A DNA stretch of 64,000 nt, taken from Closterium sp. NIES-65 (Eukaryota > Streptophyta > Zygnematophyceae > Desmidiales > Closteriaceae). The notes under the pieces were generated by a model that did no database searches, had not been told where the DNA came from, and saw only the letters and a program-made list of their open reading frames with translations. The translations under genes and the position numbers were made by a program. The DNA lies in assembly GCA_948144175.1 (NCBI GenBank), contig CANXME010000402.1, forward strand, positions 1-64,000, in the 5' to 3' direction. Below are positions 28,940 to 64,000 of the stretch, in pieces. Within the stretch, counting starts at the first letter, position 1. Every line of letters starts with the position of its first letter.

Positions 28940-29815
28940 CGCGGGTAGCAGCAGGGCACACGACGGGTAGCACAGGCACGGGCAGCAACGGGCGGCAACG
29001 GGCAGCACAAGCACGGGCAGCAACGGGCGGCAACGGGCAGCACAGGCACGGGCAGCAACTGGCAGCAACAGGCAGCACAGGCACGGGCAGCAACGGGCGG
29101 CAACGGGCAGCACAGGCACGGGCAGCAACGGGCGGCAACAGGTAGCACAGGCACGGGCGGCAACAGGCAGCACATGCACGGGCAGCAACAGGCAGCACAG
29201 GCACGGGCAGCAACGGGCGGCAACAGGCAGCACAGGCACGGGCAGCAACGGGCGGCAACGGGCAGCACAGACACAGGCAGCAACGGGCAGCACAGGCACG
29301 GGCAGCAACAGGCAGCAACGGGCAGCACAGGCACAGGCAGCAACGGGCGGCAACAGGCAGCACAGGCACGGGCAGCAACAGGCAGCACAGGCACGGGCAG
29401 CAACGGGCGGCAACAGGCAGCACAGGCACGGGCAGCAACGGGCGGCAACGGGCAGCACAGGCACGAGCAGCAACGGGCGGCAACGGGCAGCACAGGCACG
29501 GGTAGCAACGGGCGGCAACGGGCAGCACAGGCTCGGGCAGCAGCAGGCAGCAGCGGGCAGCACAGGCACATGCAGCAACGGGCGGCAACAGGCAGCACAG
29601 GCACGGGCAGCGACAGGCAGCACAGGCACGGGCAGCAACAGGCGGCAACAGGCAGCACAGGTACGGGCAGCAACAGGCAGCAACGGGCAGCACAGGCACG
29701 GGAAGCAACAGGCACCAACGGGCAGCATAGGCACGGGCAGCAACAGGCAACAACGGGCAGCACAGGCACGGGCAGCAACAGGCAGCAACGGGCAGTACAG
29801 GCAGGCAGCCGTACC
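28940..29815 (+). repeat. GC-rich minisatellite GGCAGCACAGGCACG type
   Basis: A mosaic of two short blocks, GGCAGCACAGGCACG and GGCAGCAACGGGCGGCAAC, alternates for nearly 900 bp. Period length varies (roughly 34, 49 and 53 bp combinations). It lies within the copia remnant cluster. Large open frames on the minus strand rich in Cys-Pro-Leu-Ala repeats are products of the repeat and are not called as genes. Confidence 0.9.
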
Positions 29816-30480
29816 GAGTCCAGGAGCGGCGGCGCATACAGCTGTAGGGTCGGCGCCGTGGGCTGCTGCTGGGGCGGCTCGCGGGGTCTAGGGGCGGCTG
29901 CTGAGGTCCAGGGGCGGCTGCACGAGGGGCGGCTGCTCCAGGGGCGGCGCTGAGGGCTGCTGCTGGGGCGGCTTGCGGGGTCCAGGGGCGGCTGCTGAGG
30001 TCCAGGGGCGGCTGCTCCAGGGGCGGCGTTGGTGCAAGGTAGGCCCGCGCGCGGCTGCAACGCTGGCGCAAGCGCAGGTGAGGCAGAGGCGGTGGCCAGG
30101 GGTGAGGGCGCCGCGACGAGTAGGAACGGCGCCCAAGGGGTGCCGCTACGAGTAGGGGCGACGCCCCAGGGGCGCCGTGACGAGCAGGAGCGGCGTCCAG
30201 GGGGCGCCACGACGAGCAGTGGCGACGCCCCGTGGATCCCGCAGTGCCGTCGCGACGAGCAAGGCGGCGCCGTGCGGGTCCTGCAAGGGTGTCGCGACGA
30301 GCAGGAGCGGCGGCGCCCGGGTCCTGCAGGTGCGTCGTGACGAGCAGGAGCGGCGCCTCGCAGGGCGCCGCGAAGTGGAGGGTACGGGCGGGCAAAACTG
30401 GCCCGCCCGTGGACGTGAGGCAGGCGCGCAGGCGGCGTGAGGGCAGGCCACCCGCGGGGCAGGAAGACGCCGCGCGCCCA
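29816..30480 (+). repeat. GC-rich degenerate repeats in copia cluster
   Basis: Short degenerate repeats built from GGGGCGGCTGCTGAGGTCCA (29.85-30.03 kb) and from CGACGAGCAGGAGCGGCG (30.1-30.37 kb). They continue directly from the preceding minisatellite towards the gag remnant. No conserved coding region is seen. Confidence 0.7.
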
Positions 30481-30539
30481 GAGCGCAGCAGCACATGCCT
30501 GTGCTGTGGGAGAGAACCCTAAAATCGATCTCTAAGAAC

Positions 30540-32312
30540 CTAACTACAGCGACTATGCTCTTTTCTGCTGCTAGGAGGGCCTTCTCGAGGAGGTCAACGG
30601 TGAGAGTGGTGGGGCACACTGAGAGGAAGTGGTCCCTGACTACGCGAAGAGAGTCAGGGAGCCGGGCGACTATGTAGTAGAGGGTGATGTACATGGGGGG
30701 GGGGGGTTCTTGGCGCAGAACTCAGCAAGAAGCGCATCGCGGTAGCGAATGTCACTAGTGCGGAGGTGCGTAATGAGGTCAGTGACTGTGGGAAAGGCAG
30801 CAAGGTCAGGGAAGAGGTACGGTAGCATGAGGCGGCTCACTGCAGCAGTGGCAGGGGAGGAGTAGCGTGCAACTACAGCGTCGTACAAGGCTAAAGTGCG
30901 CACGCTCAGAGGTAGGCAGGTGGCGACGCACAGCAAGGCGTGCAGCAGCATCACGTGTGGCCCACTGTGGGCGAACAGTGGCGTCAGCATCAGCAGCAGG
31001 GGCATGAGAGGCACCAGAAGTGAGGTCAAAGAGGGAGAGACCGTCTGCCCTATCGCACTGTAGGAAAAGCTGCAGGTCATCTATCCAGACGTCAAAGTCA
31101 ATGGCCCGACCCTCAGCGTCAAAAGCGAGGACACTAGGGGTAGCCATGACAACACTAGACTATCAGCGCGAACAGTAGGGTAAAGGCAGTGCAGTGACAG
31201 AGGCGCTGCTCTTACCGGACAGGGCGGCTCGAGCGGCTCGGCGGTGCGGGCGGCACGGCGGCTCGGCGACTCGGCGGCACTAGCGGCTCGGGCGGCTCGG
31301 CGGTACAGCGGCTCGGCGACTCGGCGGCACTGGCGGCTCGGGCGGCTCGGCGGTACGGCGGCTCGGCAGCTCGCGACCCGGCGGCTCGGGCGGCTCAGGT
31401 AGCACGGCGGCTCGGGTGGCTCGGGCGGCTCGGCAGCAGCTCGGCGGCGCCGGGGGCTCGGTGGTGACGGCGGGGCGGCGTGGGGACGGCGGTGGGGCCG
31501 GGTGGAGCGGCAACGTGGCCACGTGGAGCGGCGGGGCCGGGTGGAGCGGCGGCGGGGCCGGGTGGAGCTGCAACGGGGCCAGCAGAGGCGGCGTCGGGGC
31601 CGGGAAGGGCAGCGCCGGGGCCGCAGGGTAGGCGACGGGGCCAGCAGAGGCGGCGCCGGGGCCGGGAAGGGCGGCGCCGGGGCCGCAGGGGTAGGCGACG
31701 GGGCCAGCAGAGGCGGCGCCGGGGCCGGGAAGGGCGGCGCCGGGGCCGCAGGGGTAGGCGACGGGGCCAGCAGAGGTGGCGCCGGGGCCGGGAAGGGCGG
31801 CGCCGGGGCCGCAGGGGTAGGCGACGGGGCCGCTAGGGCGGCTAGGAGGGGGTCGCGAGGGCGGCTTGAAGAGGCCGCGAGGGCGGCACGAAAGGGCCGC
31901 GAGGGCGGCGCGAAGGGGCCGCGAGGGCGGCGCGACGCGACGGAGCCGCGAGGGCGGCGGATCGGGGCCGCGAGGGCGGCGCGACGCGGCCGATATGGCG
32001 GCGCGACGTGACGGGGCCGCGAGGGCGACGCGATGGGGCCGCAAGCGCGACGCGACGGGGCCGCTAAGGCGGCGCGACAAGGTCGAAAGGGGGGAGCGCG
32101 ACTCGGGCAGAGTAGAGCGCGCTCCGGGCAGGAAAAAAAAGTGGTGGGCTCTAGGAACAGTTCCCACAGGGGAACCTGCTCAATACCATGAGAAATGAAC
32201 GAGAATGAAATGACTAGGTGAAAGTTGGGTACAAGTACAAACCCTAGAAATCTGTACCCCATATGGGCTGCCCCACTAGAGCCTACAGTAGCTATGTCAT
32301 ATAAATCTGACA
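30540..32312 (-). mobile_element. Ty1/copia element, 5' part with LTR, PBS and gag
   Basis: Minus-strand element. A LTR-like end at 32189-32312 (124 bp, TGTCAGATTT...TTCTCA) is followed at 32178-32188 by TGGTATTGAGC, a variant of the initiator-tRNA-Met primer-binding site. A leader of about 1 kb made of GC-rich repeats comes next, and then gag beginning at 31147 with MATPSVLAFDAEGRAIDFDV, WIDDLQLFLQCDRADGLSLF and AARLAVRRHLPTSERAHF. Downstream are LPYLFPDLAAFPTVTDLITH and LPDSLRVVRDHFLSVCPTTL. The coding region is broken in several places, and protease, integrase and RT of this copy are not seen. It borders the inverted 31-bp satellite at 32313. Confidence 0.75.
31200..32090 (+). repeat. GC-rich repeats in copia leader, including 63-bp units
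   Basis: 31200-31430 is built from GGCGGCTCGGGCGGCTCGGC. 31637-31830 holds about three copies of a 63-bp unit containing GGGGCCAGCAGAGGCGGCGC and ending GCAGGGGTAGGCGAC. 31840-32085 is built from GGGCCGCGAGGGCGGCGCGA. All lie between the primer-binding site and gag of the minus-strand copia element. The open frames across them, rich in Gly/Arg or Pro/Ala, are repeat artefacts. Confidence 0.85.
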
Positions 32313-32846
32313 CAAGGGCCTAGCGCGTGCGAAATAGCAAGAACAAGGGCCTAGCGCGTGCAAAATTGCAAGAACAAAGACCTAGCGTGTGCAAAATTGC
32401 AAGAACAAGGGCCTAGCTCGTGCAAAATTGCAAGAACAAGGGCCTAGCGTGTGCAATATTGCAAGAACAAGGGCCTAGCGTGTGCAATATTGCAAGAACA
32501 AAGGCCTAGCATGTGCCAAATCGCAAGAACAAGGGCCTAGCGTGTGAAAAATTGCAAAAACAATGGCCTAGCGTGTGCAAAATTGCAAGAACAAGGGCCT
32601 AGCGTGTGCAAAATAGCAAGAACAAGGGCCTAGCGTGTGCAAAATTGCAATGACAAGGGCCTAGCGTGTGCAAAATTGCAATGACAAGGGCCTAGCGTGT
32701 GCGAAATTTCAAGAACAAGGGCCTAGCGTGTGCAAATTGCAAAAGCAAGGGCCTAGCATGTGCAAAATTGCAAGAACAAGGGCTTAGCGTGTGCAAAATA
32801 GCAAGAACAAGGGCCTAGAGTGTGCAAAATTGCAAGAACAACAACC
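32313..32846 (-). repeat. 31-bp satellite, inverted orientation
   Basis: About 17 copies of the same 31-bp satellite found at 1-25192, but reverse-complemented (visible core AAGGGCCTAGCGTGTGCAAA). Many copies have GCAAGAACAAGG spacing, i.e. the TTGC variant, and a few have TTGCAATGACAAGG. The array begins exactly at the outer end of the copia LTR and fades out at a stretch of unique DNA. Confidence 0.95.
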
Positions 32847-50296: not shown

Positions 50297-52937
50297 TCAT
50301 ATCATATCGAGCACGCGCCGCAGCTGGTCCCTGACAATGGCCATGTCGGGGCGGTTGTCGCGCTCGTACAGGATGGCGGAGCGGATGGTCGCCAGCACGA
50401 TGGCGCTGGCAGCGGGCTGCCACTGCCCCGCCAGCGCCGGGTCCAGCACCTGCGCGGGGTCTGCTTCGCGCGCCACGGCCACGGCCTTGCGCACGGCCTT
50501 GAAGCGCGGGCCCTGCGCTGATGCCCCCGACACGAGCTCGAGCAGGAAGATGCCAAACGCGTACGTGTCTGATAGACGCGTCAACGTGCCTGGCAGGCCG
50601 CGCAGAGCAGTGGGGGGTTGGGTGGGGGGTTAAGAGGGAGGGGTGAAGCCAAGGCGAAACTGCATGGACGGAAAGTGTTGATGAGTGATGAGCTGCTATG
50701 GTGCAATGCTGCTGTGCTCGTGGCATGGTGCAGGGGGGAGGGCATGGGGGAGGGCAGGTGGCGGACCGGAGTCGAAGTAGGCGGGGTCGATGTAGGACAT
50801 GGAGGAGGCGCCCCTCATCTGCACGTGCATCTTCCAATCCGCCACCACCCGCGCCAACCCATAGTCCGCCACCACTGGCGTGCCGTCCTGCCCAGAGCCA
50901 CAGCAGCACCGGTAGGGAGGGTGGTTGAAGGAACAAAGCGAACGTCGTTTATAGACAGAACATGAATGGACTGGCCATGGTGCCACAGTGAGGCCGATAG
51001 ATGGAAGGACGATGAGGAAAAGGAGGTAGCTTGGGCATGGACGCAGGCAACGACGGTGCAAGGCGCAGCAGCAGCTCACAGCGCGCAGCAGCAGCTCACG
51101 GCGCGCAGCAGCAGCTCACGGGTTGCAGCAGCACGTTGGAGGCTTTGAAGTTGCGGTGCACGAGGTTGAGTCGGTGCAGCTGAGCTAACACGTCCGCACA
51201 TGTGAACGCCATCTGCACTCTCTCCCTCCACCCGAACTGCACCTCTCCCCGCGCCACTGCATGGTGCACGGGGGCAGGGGGGGGAGAGGGGAAGAATGGC
51301 ATGGGAGATGCAGGATTGGTATGGCACGGAGGGTGGCATCATGCAGTGGGCTTGCAATGAGCGTGAATGAATGAACTGCTGAGCTACGCACCTCGTGCCA
51401 TGAGTTGCTCCACGCACCTCGTGCCATGAGCTGCTCCACGCACCTCGTGCCATGAGTTGCTCCACGCACCTCGTGCCATGAGCTACTCCACGCACCTCGT
51501 GCCATGAGCTACTCCACGCACCTCGTGCCATGAGCTGCTCCACGCACCTCGTGCCATGAGCTACTCCACGCACCTCGTGCCATGAGCTGCTCCACGCACC
51601 TCGTGCCATGAGTTGCTCCACGCACCTCGTGCCATGAGCTACTCCACGCACCTCGTGCCATGAGCTACTCCACGCACCTCGTGCCATGAGCTGCTCCACG
51701 CACCTCGTGCCATGAGTTGCTCCACGCACCTCGTGCCATGAGCTACTCCACGCACCTCGTGCCATGAGCTACTCCACGCACCTCGTGCCATGAGCTGCTC
51801 CACGCACCTCGTGCCATGAGCTACTCCACGCACCTCGTGCCATGAGCTGCTCCACGCACCTCGTGCCATGAGTTGCTCCACGCACCTCGTGCCATGAGCT
51901 GCTCCACGCACCTCGTGCCATGAGCTGCTCCACGCACCTCGTGCCATGAGTTGCTCCACAGTGCCGCCTTCAATGAAGTCACAGATGATGATGGGCGGCC
52001 GCTGCGCCACATACCCGTGCACGCGCAGCAGGCTGGCGTGCCGCCCCTCCTCCTCCACCAGCGCGCACTCGTGCTGTTCCCATGTCCGTTGCATGGGCCG
52101 TGTGTCACATGCCATGTGCCATGTGCCATGTGCCATGTGCCATGGAGGAAGGGGCACGGAGCAACAGGGGAAGCAAGTGAGCTGGCTGCACAAACGAAGG
52201 TCCGTGCAGACAAGGCAAGGAGGGGGGGATAGGACAGACGACCACTGAGAGCATCCATGCTTGCATCACCTCCCCCTTGCCCCCTCTTCCCCCCACCCCC
52301 TCCTCCCCCCCCTCCCTTCCCCCCCCCCACTGACCGCGAAGGTCGCCAGCCCCCCCACGCCTGTGACGGGGTCGCCGTTCAGCACCTTCACCGCCACCGG
52401 GATCAGCGCGCGCGCGCCCGCGCCCTCTGCGCCCTCCCCCTCTGTGCCGTCCCCCTCCGCGCGCGCGGCGTGCGCCCACATGAAGCCCTTGTACACGAAC
52501 CCGAACGGGCCGCGCCCTGCGAGCGCCTTGAAGCCCTCCGTGGCGTGCAGCGCGTCCTCGAACGCGTACTCGCGCACCCACCCCCGCCCGCGCTCCCCCT
52601 CCCCCGCCGCCCGCACCGTCGGGTACACGGGGTCTGGCGCGCGCGAGGGGGGAAGGAGGAAGAGAAATAGGGGGTTGGGGAGAGAAGGGGGCAATGAGTG
52701 ATTTCGTGAGCGGAGAATAAAATGGATAGCACCAGTTGAGTGGAGTAGCGCGTTGAACCACTCTAGATCGGTTCTTGCGGTGATAGCGCGATTGGTGGTG
52801 GCACTGGAACTGGTGGCGTTTCGGGGAAGAGAGCGGAAAGCGGGCAAAAGAGGTGATAGAGAGCAAAAACGGCGGGCGGGGCAGAGCGTCGTACGCAGTT
52901 CACCGTCGCCCACTGGTCGCGAGAAGAGCCCGCCCAT
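50297..52937 (-). CDS. Receptor-like cytoplasmic kinase, degenerate HRD (HRN)
   Basis: Protein of 339 residues, kinase domain only, no ectodomain or membrane span. Exons 52937-52904, 52633-52335, 52073-51938, 51256-51120, 50887-50767 and 50589-50297 join in phase. The start MGGLFS is a likely N-myristoylation site, suggesting plasma-membrane attachment. Visible motifs: EYAFEDALHATEGF, glycine loop GRGPFGFVYKG (51-61), VAVK lysine 94, VQFGWRERVQMAFTCADVL, then LVHRNFKASNVLL in which the catalytic HRD aspartate is Asn192, VADYGLAR (DFG as DYG, Asp210 kept), YIDPAYF and SDTYAFGIFLLELVSG. The lost HRD aspartate predicts a pseudokinase or very weak kinase. Exon number and phases match the divergent kinase at 54103-56866, so the two are paralogues. 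Its introns 3 and 4 hold donor-derived tandem repeats. Confidence 0.88.
51061..51120 (+). repeat. 20-bp donor-border repeat, kinase intron 4
   Basis: Three 20-bp copies of GTGAGCTGCTGCTGCGCGCC (minus strand) start exactly at the exon 4 border (CAACCC then GTGAGC). Each copy begins with a consensus GTGAGC donor. Confidence 0.85.
51385..51958 (-). repeat. 26-bp minisatellite copying exon 3 donor border
   Basis: About 22 copies of a 26-bp unit that, on the minus strand, reads GCAACTCATGGCACGAGGTG with GCGTGGA linking copies. The unit is the last 17-20 coding bases of exon 3 (residues EQLMAR) plus the first bases of intron 3, so every copy carries CACGAG followed by a GTGCGT donor. Two main variants are GAGCTGCTCC and GAGCTACTCC on the plus strand. 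Since 26 is not a multiple of 3, use of a later donor would shift the frame for most copies. Confidence 0.93.
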
Positions 52938-54102: not shown

Positions 54103-56866
54103 ATGGGGTGCGCAGCGTCGCACGCGAGAGGTTCTGAAACGCCACCGCCACCGCAGCTGGGATCGTCGCGATCAGGTGACGCGTGCTGGAGGCTCGCTGC
54201 CGTAGCAGGTCAGGTGGGGGGCAGTAGGGAATGCGCGCTGCAGCAGAATAGGTACGCTGCAGTACCGATGGCGCGATCGCGATAGCGTCCAGCACCCGCT
54301 CGTACTGCCAACGACGTCACGCCGCCCACCCCCTCAAGTCGTCCCTCTTCCCCCCTTTTGCCCGCCCACCCTCTCTGCCCCGTCCCCCCCACGCCTCTCC
54401 TTTTCGCTCCCCCGAATACCTCCTTCCCCCCCCCCACCCAGACCCGCGGTCGCCGTACCCGGTGCGCAAGTCCGCGGAGGCGGGCGGCGGAGTGTGCGAG
54501 TACAGCTACCAGGAGGTGCACGCCGCCACGGGCGGGTTCCAGCACGAGGTGGGGCGCGGCGGGTTCGGCGTGGTGTACCACGGGTACCTCGCGGAGCCGC
54601 ACGGCGGGCAGGGCGCGGGCGTGTGGGCCGTGGCCGTGAAGCTGATGAGCGGCGAGCACATCGCCAACGGCATCGACAGCTTCATGGTGCGCCACGTGGG
54701 AAGGGGAGGGAGGGGGTGGATGAAGGAGGAGGGGGAAGAATGGTGGAAACGGGTGAGGGTAATCGTGGGGAACAAGGGGGGCTGATTTGACTGTTTACTC
54801 GTGAGCTACCTGCCTGCTAGTCAGCTTTTTCCCGGCCAATCTAATCCCTAGGTGCATGGTGGCATGGTGGCATGGTGGCATGGTGGCATGGGCATGGTGG
54901 CATGGGCATGATGGCATGGCGGCATGGTGGTGGTATGGTGGCATGGGGCCATGGCATGGTGGATGGTGGCATGGCGGCATGGCGGCATTGTGGCATGGGG
55001 ACATGGCATGGTGGCATGGTGGCATGGTGGCATGGTGGCATGGTGGCATGGTGGCATGGCATGGCAGACGGAGGTGGCGGTGATGGCTCGGGTGCACCAC
55101 CCCAACATCCTGCGCCTGGAGGGGTACGTGGTGGGCGCCACGCCCATCCTCATCTACGACTACATCCCCAATGGGGACGCCGCCTCCTACCTCGCCAAAG
55201 GTGCCTCCTACCTCGCCAAAGGTGCCTCCTACCTTGCCAAAGGTGCCTCCTACCTCCTCAAAGGTGCCTCCTACCTCCTCAAAGGTGCCTCCCGCTGCCC
55301 AACCCCTCCCTACCTCCGCCAGAGGTGCCGCCCTGGTCGCTGGCACTCTCTCCCCGCCATGCATCCATGCCACTGCCATGCACTAATCGCTGCCTGGACT
55401 TTGACCATGTCCATCGCTTGCCTTCCACGCTCACATTCCCCGCTCTCCATGCATCCCCTCGCTCTCCATGCATCCCCCCGCTCTCCATGCATCCCCCCGC
55501 TCTCCATGCATCCCCCCGCTCTCCATGCATCCCCCCGCTCTCCATGCATCCCCCCGCTCTCCATGCATCCCCCCGCTCTCCATGCATCCCCCCGCTCTCC
55601 ATGCACCCCCCCGCTCTCCATGCATCCCTTATGTTCTCCCGCTCCCCCCATGCTGCAGCTCGGAGTGGAGAGGTGCAGTTTGGGTGGAGGGACAGGCTGA
55701 AGGTGGCACTGGGGTGTGCGGAGGCGCTGACAGCCATCCACGCCAACGGCTTTGTGCACCGCGACTTCAAGGCGCCCAACGTGCTGCTGCGGGAGGTGAG
55801 CCCCCATGTGCTGCTTGGGAAGGTGGACTGCTGCTAAGAGAGGGGAGGCGGGCCTCATGCATGCAGTGCAGAAGCACATGAGACTCACTCGCATCTAACC
55901 TCTCTCACCCCACTGCCCTGCGCCCGCCCGCCACAGGACCTGACACCAGTGGTGGCAGACTTTGGGTTGGCGCGAGCGGTGGATGACTGGAAGACACACG
56001 TGGAGACACGCGTGATGGGGTCCGTGGGCTACATCGACCCCATCTACTTCGAATCAGGTCAGTGGGCTACATCGACCCCATCTACTTCGAATCAGGTCAG
56101 TGGGCTACATCGACCCCATCTACTTGGAATCAGGTCAGTGGGCTACATCGACCCCATCTACTTGGAATCAGGTCAGTGGGCTACATCGACCCCATCTACT
56201 TGGAATCAGGTCAGTGGGCTACATCGACCCTATCTACTTGGAATCAGGTCAGCTGCCCCCACCTCTCTGCCATGAATCATTGCACGCAGTCCCTTGTACA
56301 TCAGATGACCAGCCAGTTACATCAGATGACCAGCCAGTTACATCAGATGACCAGCCAGTTACATCAGATGACCAGCCAGTTACATCAGATGACCAGCCAG
56401 TTACATCAGATGACCAGCCAGTTACATCAGATGACCAGCCAGTTACATCAGATGACCAGCCAGTTACATCAGATGACCAGCCAGTTACGTAGGCACTCTT
56501 CAAGGTTGCCTTCTGGTATACTTCTCTTGTGCTTCCGCCCCTGCAGGCAACCTGAGCAAGAAGTCGGACACGTATGCGTTTGGGATATTCTTTCTGGAGC
56601 TCATCTCGGGCGTGTCTGCGCTTGACGGCAGCTTCAAGGAGCTGCGGCGCCTCGTGACGGGCAATGACTACCCCGATGCCGCTCTTGTCATGGACCCACA
56701 CCTGGCGGGGCAGTGGCACCTCAAGCACGTGCTCGTGGCCTTCACACTCATCAAGTTTGCAATCTTCTACGACTGGGAAACTAGACCAGGGATGGATGTT
56801 CTCATAAGAAAGCTCAAGGATATTGTGTCTGAAGTTGAAACAACATCTGGCGTTAGAAAGATGTGA
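54103..56866 (+). CDS. Receptor-like cytoplasmic kinase (Ser/Thr)
   Basis: Serine/threonine kinase of 342 residues with no ectodomain. Exons 54103-54175, 54442-54686, 55068-55200, 55659-55795, 55937-56057 and 56547-56866 join in phase. MGCAAS at the start is a classic myristoylation plus palmitoylation signal, implying plasma-membrane attachment. Motifs: CEYSYQEVHAATGGF, glycine loop GRGGFGVVYHG (62-72), VAVK lysine 91, TEVAVMARVHHPNILRLEGY, FVHRDFKAPNVLL (Asp186), VADFGLAR (Asp204), YIDPIYFESG in place of the usual YLDPEY, and SDTYAFGIFFLELISG. All catalytic residues checked are present, unlike the paralogue at 50297-52937, which is arranged head to head. Introns 2, 3 and 5 hold minisatellites; those beginning at the exon 3 and exon 5 donors are copies of the border itself. 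Confidence 0.9.
54852..55066 (+). repeat. ATGGTGGC-type repeat in kinase intron 2
   Basis: Degenerate 8-9 bp tandem repeat (GGCATGGT, GGCATGGGC, GGCATGGC) running up to the exon 3 acceptor (ATGGCAG). Confidence 0.9.
55180..55290 (+). repeat. 21-bp donor-border repeat, kinase exon 3/intron 3
   Basis: Five 21-bp copies of GCCTCCTACCTCGCCAAAGG plus T; the first is the coding end of exon 3 (ASYLAKG) and the rest extend into the intron. Each of the first four ends in AAAG followed by GT. The unit is 7 codons and the frame stays open, so use of a later donor would add the peptide ASYLAKG or ASYLLKG repeatedly. Confidence 0.9.
55440..55626 (+). repeat. 19-bp minisatellite in kinase intron 3
   Basis: About ten copies of CTCTCCATGCATCCCCCCG, upstream of the exon 4 acceptor. 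Confidence 0.95.
56020..56250 (+). repeat. 38-bp donor-border repeat, kinase exon 5/intron 5
   Basis: Six 38-bp copies of the 3' end of exon 5 plus the donor: the unit contains GTGGGCTACATCGACCCCAT and CTACTTCGAATCAGGTCA. The first copy is coding (VGYIDPIYFESG). Later copies change TTCGAA to TTGGAA. Every copy carries the same AATCAG/GTCAGT donor. The unit length is not a multiple of 3. Confidence 0.94.
56298..56487 (+). repeat. 21-bp minisatellite in kinase intron 5
   Basis: Nine near-perfect copies of a 21-bp unit containing CATCAGATGACCAGCCAGTT, in the same intron as the 38-bp donor repeat. Confidence 0.95.
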
Positions 56867-62220: not shown

Positions 62221-64000
62221 TCATCCCTCGCGCCCCACAGCAGGGCGCTCCCACTCGCCCTCTGCCTCGCCCCCTCGCTGCACTGCAGTGCCGCCCGCAA
62301 GCGGCAGGTCTTGTCTGAAAGAATCAAATCCCAAGCCGCCCAGCACCGGCACCCCTCCGCTCCTCCCCGCTGCAAACCGCTGCCTCTTCTCTTCCATACT
62401 CACAACGCTCCCTCCCTCATCCCCACAATTACTCCCACCCTCTGTGCCTGTGCCTGTAATAGTGCTGTCACCTGACTCTGCACCACTGCCGCCCCTTCTC
62501 TCCCCACCCTCCCCTCCTTCAAAACGTCCCACTGCCCCCACTGCTTCACCATCAGCCACACCAGCAGCACCACCCACCACCTCAGATCGCTCGCCCTTTT
62601 CCGGCAGTGAGGAGTGGCCGGCGGTGCTGTTGGGCGGCGGGAACTGGGCGGCAACACCACAAAGCTGTGCGAGGTGGCGGACGGCGGAGAGGATTGAGGG
62701 GTGGCAGGGGAGGGTTGTGGGCGGCAGGGGTGGGTGGCAGTGGGGATGGAAGGCTGGGCGGGCGGCGTAGGAGACATGCAGTGAGAGCACTGCACGTGCA
62801 AAGATGAACCTGAGAGCGGGAGCGTGATGGGGAGGAGAGATGGGATAGAGAGAAGGAAAAAGGGTTAGAAAGGGAGTGAGTGGGGGAGGGACAGGTTGGA
62901 GCAGTGAGGCTGATGCGATGGCACGCATGTGAAAGTAGGGTGTGATGGCAGAGCATGGCGGGGTGAGGGCATGGCAGGGGGGAGTGGCAGGGACCTGAGG
63001 AGGAAGAGGCGCAGGAAGGGGTCAAGCAGCAGGCGCGCCCAGGCCAGGGGCAGCGTGGGGCAGGCAGCGAGCGATGTGCCCCACTGCGACAGCAGCATTG
63101 CTAGTTGCCTCTCCCACCCCATGTACTGCTCCTGATGGGGTGGCGTGGTGAAGGGATGCACATGGGGACAGGAACAACGGGAAACAGGGAGGGGGATGAG
63201 ACAAGGGGGGTTGGTTGGAAGTTGAAGTGGGCACACGCAGTGGCTTGGGAATACCAGCAGCAGTACCTCGGAATTACCGGCAGCAGCAGTACCTTGGGAA
63301 TGTCGGGCAGGGGCACGGCAGTGAGGCGGCAGAAGGCCTGCAGAGGGGCGGTGAGGAAGAGCGTGAAGAGATTGCCGCCCGCCAGGTGCGTGGCCGTGGC
63401 GAGGGAGGCGGCGGGCGCTGCAGCGGAGGTGGGGGAGGAGGAGGGGAGTTCAGACGTGGGGGCAGCAGACGGTGCAGTGGAGGGGATAGAAGCAGTGGCA
63501 GTATTGACAGCAGCCGGAGGCTCTGCTGCCGTGTCAGCAACAGCCGAGGCGGATTGAGAGGAGGGAGGGACGGTGCCACCAGCATTGGTTGCGGCAGGAG
63601 TGGTGGCAGTGGTGGAGGAAGGTTGAGAGGGGCGGGGAGCGGTGCTGATGTCGGGCTGCAGGCGGGGCGAGAGCAGCATGGCGCACGGCTCTCCTCGCTC
63701 CCTGCCACCCAGCCACTGGCAGTTCCGAGGACAGAGCGCACGGGGACGGGGAGTGGAGATGCGGGGGGGGTAGTAGTAAGGACGGGTGCACACGCAGGGA
63801 GCAGTGCGGCGATGCAGGCATGGAGGCACTGGGTCAAGCATGGCTCTCACATCAGGCAGTGGGGCAGAATGGAGTGAGTCAAGCAGGCACGCGCGGTACA
63901 CAGCACAGCGTGTGGATGAATGAGTGTCCGTCACCTGCAGGATTGTCACACCCACCTGGAAGGCAGTGCTATTGTCACACCCACCTGGAAGGCAGCGCTA
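62221..64000 (-). CDS. Unknown protein, 3' part only (runs off window)
   Basis: A partial gene I cannot name. Phase-consistent exons are 63715-63293 (WLGGRERGEPCAMLLSPRLQ, a long Ala/Ser/Thr/Pro-rich stretch, then HLAGGNLFTLFLTAPLQAFC and RLTAVPLPDIPK), 63131-62995 (EQYMGWERQLAMLLSQWGTS and LPLAWARLLLDPFLRLFLLR) and 62809-62221 (FIFARAVLSLHVSYAARPAF, later SAVRHLAQLCGVAAQFP, then Gly/Glu-rich low complexity to a stop). A short further exon ending in TGTGACAATCCTGCAG at 63935 is likely, and the gene continues past 64000. Leu/Trp-rich helices suggest an all-helical fold. The last exon may contain an unrecognised intron. Confidence 0.5.
63935..64000 (-). repeat. Start of a donor-like tandem repeat at window end
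   Basis: Two copies (about 28-29 bp) of GCCTTCCAGGTGGGTGTGAC type on the minus strand, each carrying CAG followed by a GTGGGT donor-like site. The array is cut by the window edge, so its full length is unknown. Confidence 0.6.

Follow-up and report, generated by a model that had tools for sequence, protein, structure and literature searches.

We analysed a 64,000-nucleotide stretch of DNA from the alga Closterium sp. NIES-65 (contig CANXME010000402.1, positions 1 to 64,000; hereafter the window), in which two receptor-like cytoplasmic kinase (RLCK) genes lie as head-to-head neighbours. The window is high in GC, also holds PLAC8, GT10, GT25 and RPL23 genes and, as far as 64 kb shows, looks very rich in minisatellites. 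A 31-bp satellite of roughly 813 copies occupies positions 1–25192 and resembles the margin of a large satellite block; 17 reverse-complement copies of it lie 7 kb beyond, past other array blocks, at 32312–32841, and no relatives of it were found in viral contigs. Beside the satellite block, positions 28963–32078 hold dense G+C-rich tandem arrays (roughly 8 to 95 bp), perhaps repetitive coding sequence. Intron 1 of the RPL23 gene (46605–46378, minus strand) has an apparent GC donor, CGAG/GCAAGG (here and below, a slash marks the exon–intron border).

The plus-strand kinase gene is complete (54103–56866) and encodes 342 amino acids in six exons (54103–54175, 54442–54686, 55068–55200, 55659–55795, 55937–56057 and 56547–56866), with intron phases 1,0,1,0,1 in the spliced model. 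The protein keeps both the HRD and the DFG motif and matches the Pfam family PK_Tyr_Ser-Thr (2.7e-37), and its nearest PDB sequence is the RLCK-VII kinase PBL2 (E = 5.6e-43). The minus-strand paralogue, likewise complete (50297–52937), encodes 339 amino acids in six exons with the same phases. Both models were built by hand from GT–AG borders, reading frame and mutual homology, and both pass the PF07714 cut-off (128.9 and 89.6 bits). In the paralogue, HRN stands where the plus-strand kinase has HRD with its catalytic aspartate, and DYG in place of DFG; on account of the altered catalytic loop, the gene may encode a pseudokinase. The pair resembles RLCK-VII kinases such as PBL2 and BIK1 in kinase domain sequence and also begins with MGC or MGG, a family placement by sequence similarity from which the HRN of the paralogue departs. 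No relatives of the kinase were found in viral contigs or prokaryote genomes.

Two exon ends of the plus-strand kinase are tandemly reiterated together with their splice donors. At exon 3, Tandem Repeats Finder reports a 21-bp array at 55182–55292 (5.3 copies, 95% match, score 187), which begins 19 bp before the exon end at 55200 and otherwise lies beyond the first donor. It presents five identical donors, AAG/GTGCCT, after positions 55200, 55221, 55242, 55263 and 55284. A sequence-only reading of this DNA had described five in-frame copies encoding ASYLAKG; the five copies are there, three of them reading ASYLAKG and two ASYLLKG. At exon 5, a 38-bp array at 56019–56252 (6.2 copies, 98% match, score 440) begins 39 bp before the exon end at 56057 and again extends past the first donor. 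The donor CAG/GTCAG occurs six times in it, as CAG/GTCAGTGG after 56057, 56095, 56133, 56171 and 56209 and as CAG/GTCAGCTG after 56247, which bears out the six copies of exon end and donor described earlier. Across 40 dinucleotide-preserving shuffles of 55068–56250 the best repeat score was 46, against the real 187 and 440, which excludes chance as the source of these two arrays.

The minus-strand paralogue shows the same arrangement. At the homologous exon 3 border, a 26-bp array (51386–51959, minus strand) comprises 22 copies with 22 donors GAG/GTGCGT, and variants among its copies recur in blocks. That this border is amplified with another unit sequence and length, 26 rather than 21 bp, had also been recognized from the letters. 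Three further features came to light beyond that reading. The exon 4 border of the paralogue carries a 20-bp array (51063–51133, minus strand; 3.5 copies) with the donor GTGAGC three times. Across the exon 4 donor of the plus-strand kinase lies a diverged two-copy, 27-bp duplication (55781–55834, plus strand), possibly old and not significant alone, which we did not count since about 6% of non-array positions score at least as high. The third lies in the SCAI gene, which is unrelated to the kinases: a 26-bp unit in about 2.1 copies (63255–63310, minus strand) spans the exon end ATTCCCAAG/GTACTG, and splicing there yields one unbroken Pfam SCAI match over the junction (86.9 bits spliced versus 28.9 and 19.8 in pieces). 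At the window edge (63942–64000, minus strand), a 29-bp unit with CCTTCCAG/GTGGGT is repeated near an exon start of the SCAI gene and may likewise span a splice border, at an acceptor or at a donor. The donor-spanning arrays are thus minisatellites whose unit holds the 5′ splice site and recurs in several slightly varying tandem copies, 14 to 39 bp of each array being exonic.

Splicing at the first donor throughout gives intact kinases that are colinear with each other, exon 4 measuring 137 bp and exon 5 measuring 121 bp in both. Later donors fare differently. None of the 38-, 26- and 20-bp units is divisible by three, and only the 21-bp array holds the frame at every donor choice. At exon 5 of the plus-strand kinase, donors 2, 3, 5 and 6 lead to an early stop, copy 4 being exempt; at exon 3 of the paralogue, only donors 4, 7 and 10 among the later ones preserve the frame as far as the normal stop, and every donor from 13 on meets an early stop owing to TAG variants. 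Since most downstream donors break the frame, the extra copies are better regarded as intron than as protein. The drift of later copies, in which FES becomes LES in four of the six 38-bp copies and LAK becomes LLK in two of the five 21-bp copies, likewise fits intron better than exon.

The repeated donors could instead be functional, tuning kinase splicing or isoforms through several U1 sites or through in-frame seven-residue units after helix αD. The five identical, frame-holding donors of the 21-bp array speak for such a role, as does human ABCA7, where repeat length tracks skipping of the next exon (PMC5954066). Set against this, the other three kinase arrays break the frame, the 26-bp array has accumulated TAG variants and conserved residues are lost in downstream copies, and we consider a function very unlikely. 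Frames and stops led us to reject protein lengthening as a general explanation, and the proposal that extra exon 3 copies lengthen the protein finds no support, the first donor being sufficient for colinear kinases. Nor does the suggested position, just after the hinge of the N-lobe, fit: judged by alignment to PBL2 and general knowledge of the kinase fold, insertions from the 21-bp array would fall in the loop between helices αD and αE, in the C-lobe.

Tandem duplication of an AGGT-bearing exon segment can also give birth to an intron (the Rogers model), a process reported in fission yeast and vertebrates. AGGT stands at the border in four of the five donor-spanning units (the intron 4 unit of the paralogue has CCCGT), and introns built from 24-nt tandem repeats that carry AGGC have been described in fission yeast (PMC3629103). 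In the kinases, however, the two paralogues agree in the position and phase of all five introns, intron 5 is present in the minus-strand gene without an array across its donor, and the acceptors lie outside the arrays. For the kinases this contradicts intron gain by the Rogers model, under which the intron should be missing from a homologue without the duplication; introns common to both paralogues indicate that the arrays expanded introns already there, and an origin by intron birth is extremely improbable. We give no more credence to an assembly artefact: tandem arrays are prone to wrong copy number, but the copies here carry distinct substitutions and the 21- and 38-bp arrays are only 111 and 234 bp long.

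For a wider view of array placement, 35 introns were modelled in nine genes (34499–63292), every intron being supported by the frame and most genes by Pfam. Arrays occupy 37.7% of intron bases versus 2.9% of exon bases. The final 60 nt of these introns are poor in AG, at 1.4% versus 3.7% of dinucleotides outside arrays. Because long arrays fill at least a quarter of the positions, a base-level border test is uninformative; each array was therefore reduced to a single unit whose position was randomized, wholly exonic placements being left out, and the 29-bp array at 63942–64000, where the exon border is unclear, was excluded from the counts. Over the 35 introns, donor-spanning arrays number 5 of 22 against 1.92 expected (P = 0.036), acceptor-spanning arrays 0 of 22 against 1.92 expected (P = 0.13), and the donor-minus-acceptor difference has P = 0.011 under random unit placement.

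These counts bear on the suggestion, made in the sequence-only reading, that minisatellites of the Closterium genome tend to be born at splice-donor borders, which would act as mutational hot spots. The overall excess favours it, as do the kinases, where 4 of 10 arrays span a donor against 0.86 expected (P = 0.008), a comparison chosen after the fact. The breakpoints at intron 5 of the plus-strand kinase, where exonic GGTCCG pairs with donor GGTCAG, point the same way. The kinases prompted the finding, however, so that the count without them is the fair test, and there one donor-spanning array is seen against 1.08 expected (P = 0.68): in this small sample, no general hot spot emerges. A donor-only excess would, moreover, also be left behind by selection on splicing. 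The same structural intron is indeed hit in both paralogues, as had been remarked, but it carries little weight as evidence for hot spots: two kinases with two of five introns hit in each would share at least one with a chance of 1 − 3/10 = 0.70. At intron 3 the breakpoints of the two genes lie about one codon apart upstream and 2 bp apart downstream; the arrays may descend from a common one that was later replaced, although the differing unit lengths (21 and 26 bp) and sequences make separate origins simpler than one ancestral array. Taken together, we regard hot spots at donors as unlikely, and hold as little confidence in a cause such as G- and T-rich donor motifs giving matching short repeats, or RNA–DNA hybrids at intron starts.

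The explanation we favour, with a probability of about 0.78, is that these are ordinary intron minisatellites lying across donors, with the first donor used and the extra copies spliced out as intron. The arrays would have been born as short tandem duplications in which the unit by chance took in the 5′ splice site along with the end of the exon. With the donor duplicated, the exon and the first donor would stay whole, each further copy becoming intron; being nearly harmless, such an array would persist and could lengthen through slippage or through unequal exchange. In keeping with slippage, the unit and the downstream flank share short matches of 2 to 11 bp, and the recurring blocks of copy variants in the 26-bp array are expected from unequal exchange. 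The spliceosome would most likely pick the first (5′-most) donor, sometimes straying to a later copy, and remove the rest; colinearity with the paralogue supports use of the first donor indirectly, and we infer that the extra copies are neutral. Three points weigh against this explanation. Where identical donors compete closely, the spliceosome sometimes prefers the one closer to the acceptor, and the last donor copy would then have the advantage. The first donor of the 38-bp array pairs better with U1 than the last (−9.1 versus −6.9 kcal/mol), a difference that could be selected. Finally, four of the five donor-spanning arrays sit in the two kinases, above random placement.

In the choice of a 3′ splice site, an upstream AG copy would be encountered before the true AG. 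A duplication over an acceptor would thus be removed by splicing, the upstream copy being used first. If acceptor duplications are lost in this way, donor-spanning arrays, an absence of acceptor-spanning ones and AG-free arrays beside acceptors are predicted. None of the five arrays ending within 30 bp of an acceptor contains AG, with a chance of about 0.10 given the low AG content of the introns; the five include an 8-bp array in intron 2 of the plus-strand kinase (54854–55059, plus strand; 26.8 copies), which stops 8 bp short of the acceptor, and a second array in its intron 3 (55438–55628, plus strand; 19 bp, 10.1 copies), which stops 30 bp short of the acceptor there. We infer, with modest support, a splicing filter against acceptor duplications. 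Of the two alternatives raised earlier, that repeated donors are tolerated or that they are selected, the first is accordingly the better, no array spanning an acceptor.

A broader generalization is that, in this minisatellite-rich genome, splicing sifts newly born repeats: donor duplications survive and grow, acceptor duplications are lost, arrays close to acceptors have to be free of AG and reiterated donors occur commonly. We hold this to be doubtful at present; if true, repeats at intron ends would bear a readable imprint of splice-site choice. Should donor-spanning arrays turn out to be common across the genome and acceptor-spanning ones to be rare, arrays of 3 to 22 near-identical donors would provide natural tests of how the spliceosome selects among equal sites. 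The kinase pair meanwhile offers a clear case of intron repeats growing out of an exon border with the gene undisturbed.

Known systems resemble the Closterium arrays in part. Among fission yeast genes, SPOG_01682 and SOCG_00815 have introns built of exon-derived 24-nt tandem repeats (PMC3629103). As in Closterium, the units are short and exon-derived, carry proto-splice sites and recur in non-identical copies, and orthologues are hit at different positions; there, however, the repeats created new introns, whereas the Closterium introns are older than their arrays. The potato RdRp gene gained an intron through duplication across an intron–exon boundary (PMC4974935), again a tandem duplication over a splice border, but a single one, over the acceptor, that produced a new intron, in contrast to the reiterations over donors described here, which produced none. 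The closest parallel is the variable-number tandem repeat in intron 18 of human ABCA7, which directly follows the exon and whose 25-bp unit contains the donor of exon 18; the canonical donor is the first, the transcript that keeps one repeat unit is minor and longer alleles show more skipping of exon 19 (PMC5954066). Both systems thus have the donor GT within the unit, many slightly varied copies and a unit that is generally not a multiple of three, and in ABCA7 a later copy serves as a minor donor. They differ in that the ABCA7 repeat, found in a human gene, is described as starting at the GT, whereas 14 to 39 bp are exonic in Closterium, where the units in two paralogues and in a third gene are unrelated. 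Donor-spanning repeats were therefore already known through ABCA7, and the point of interest here is the occurrence of several cases within 64 kb together with the asymmetry between donors and acceptors.
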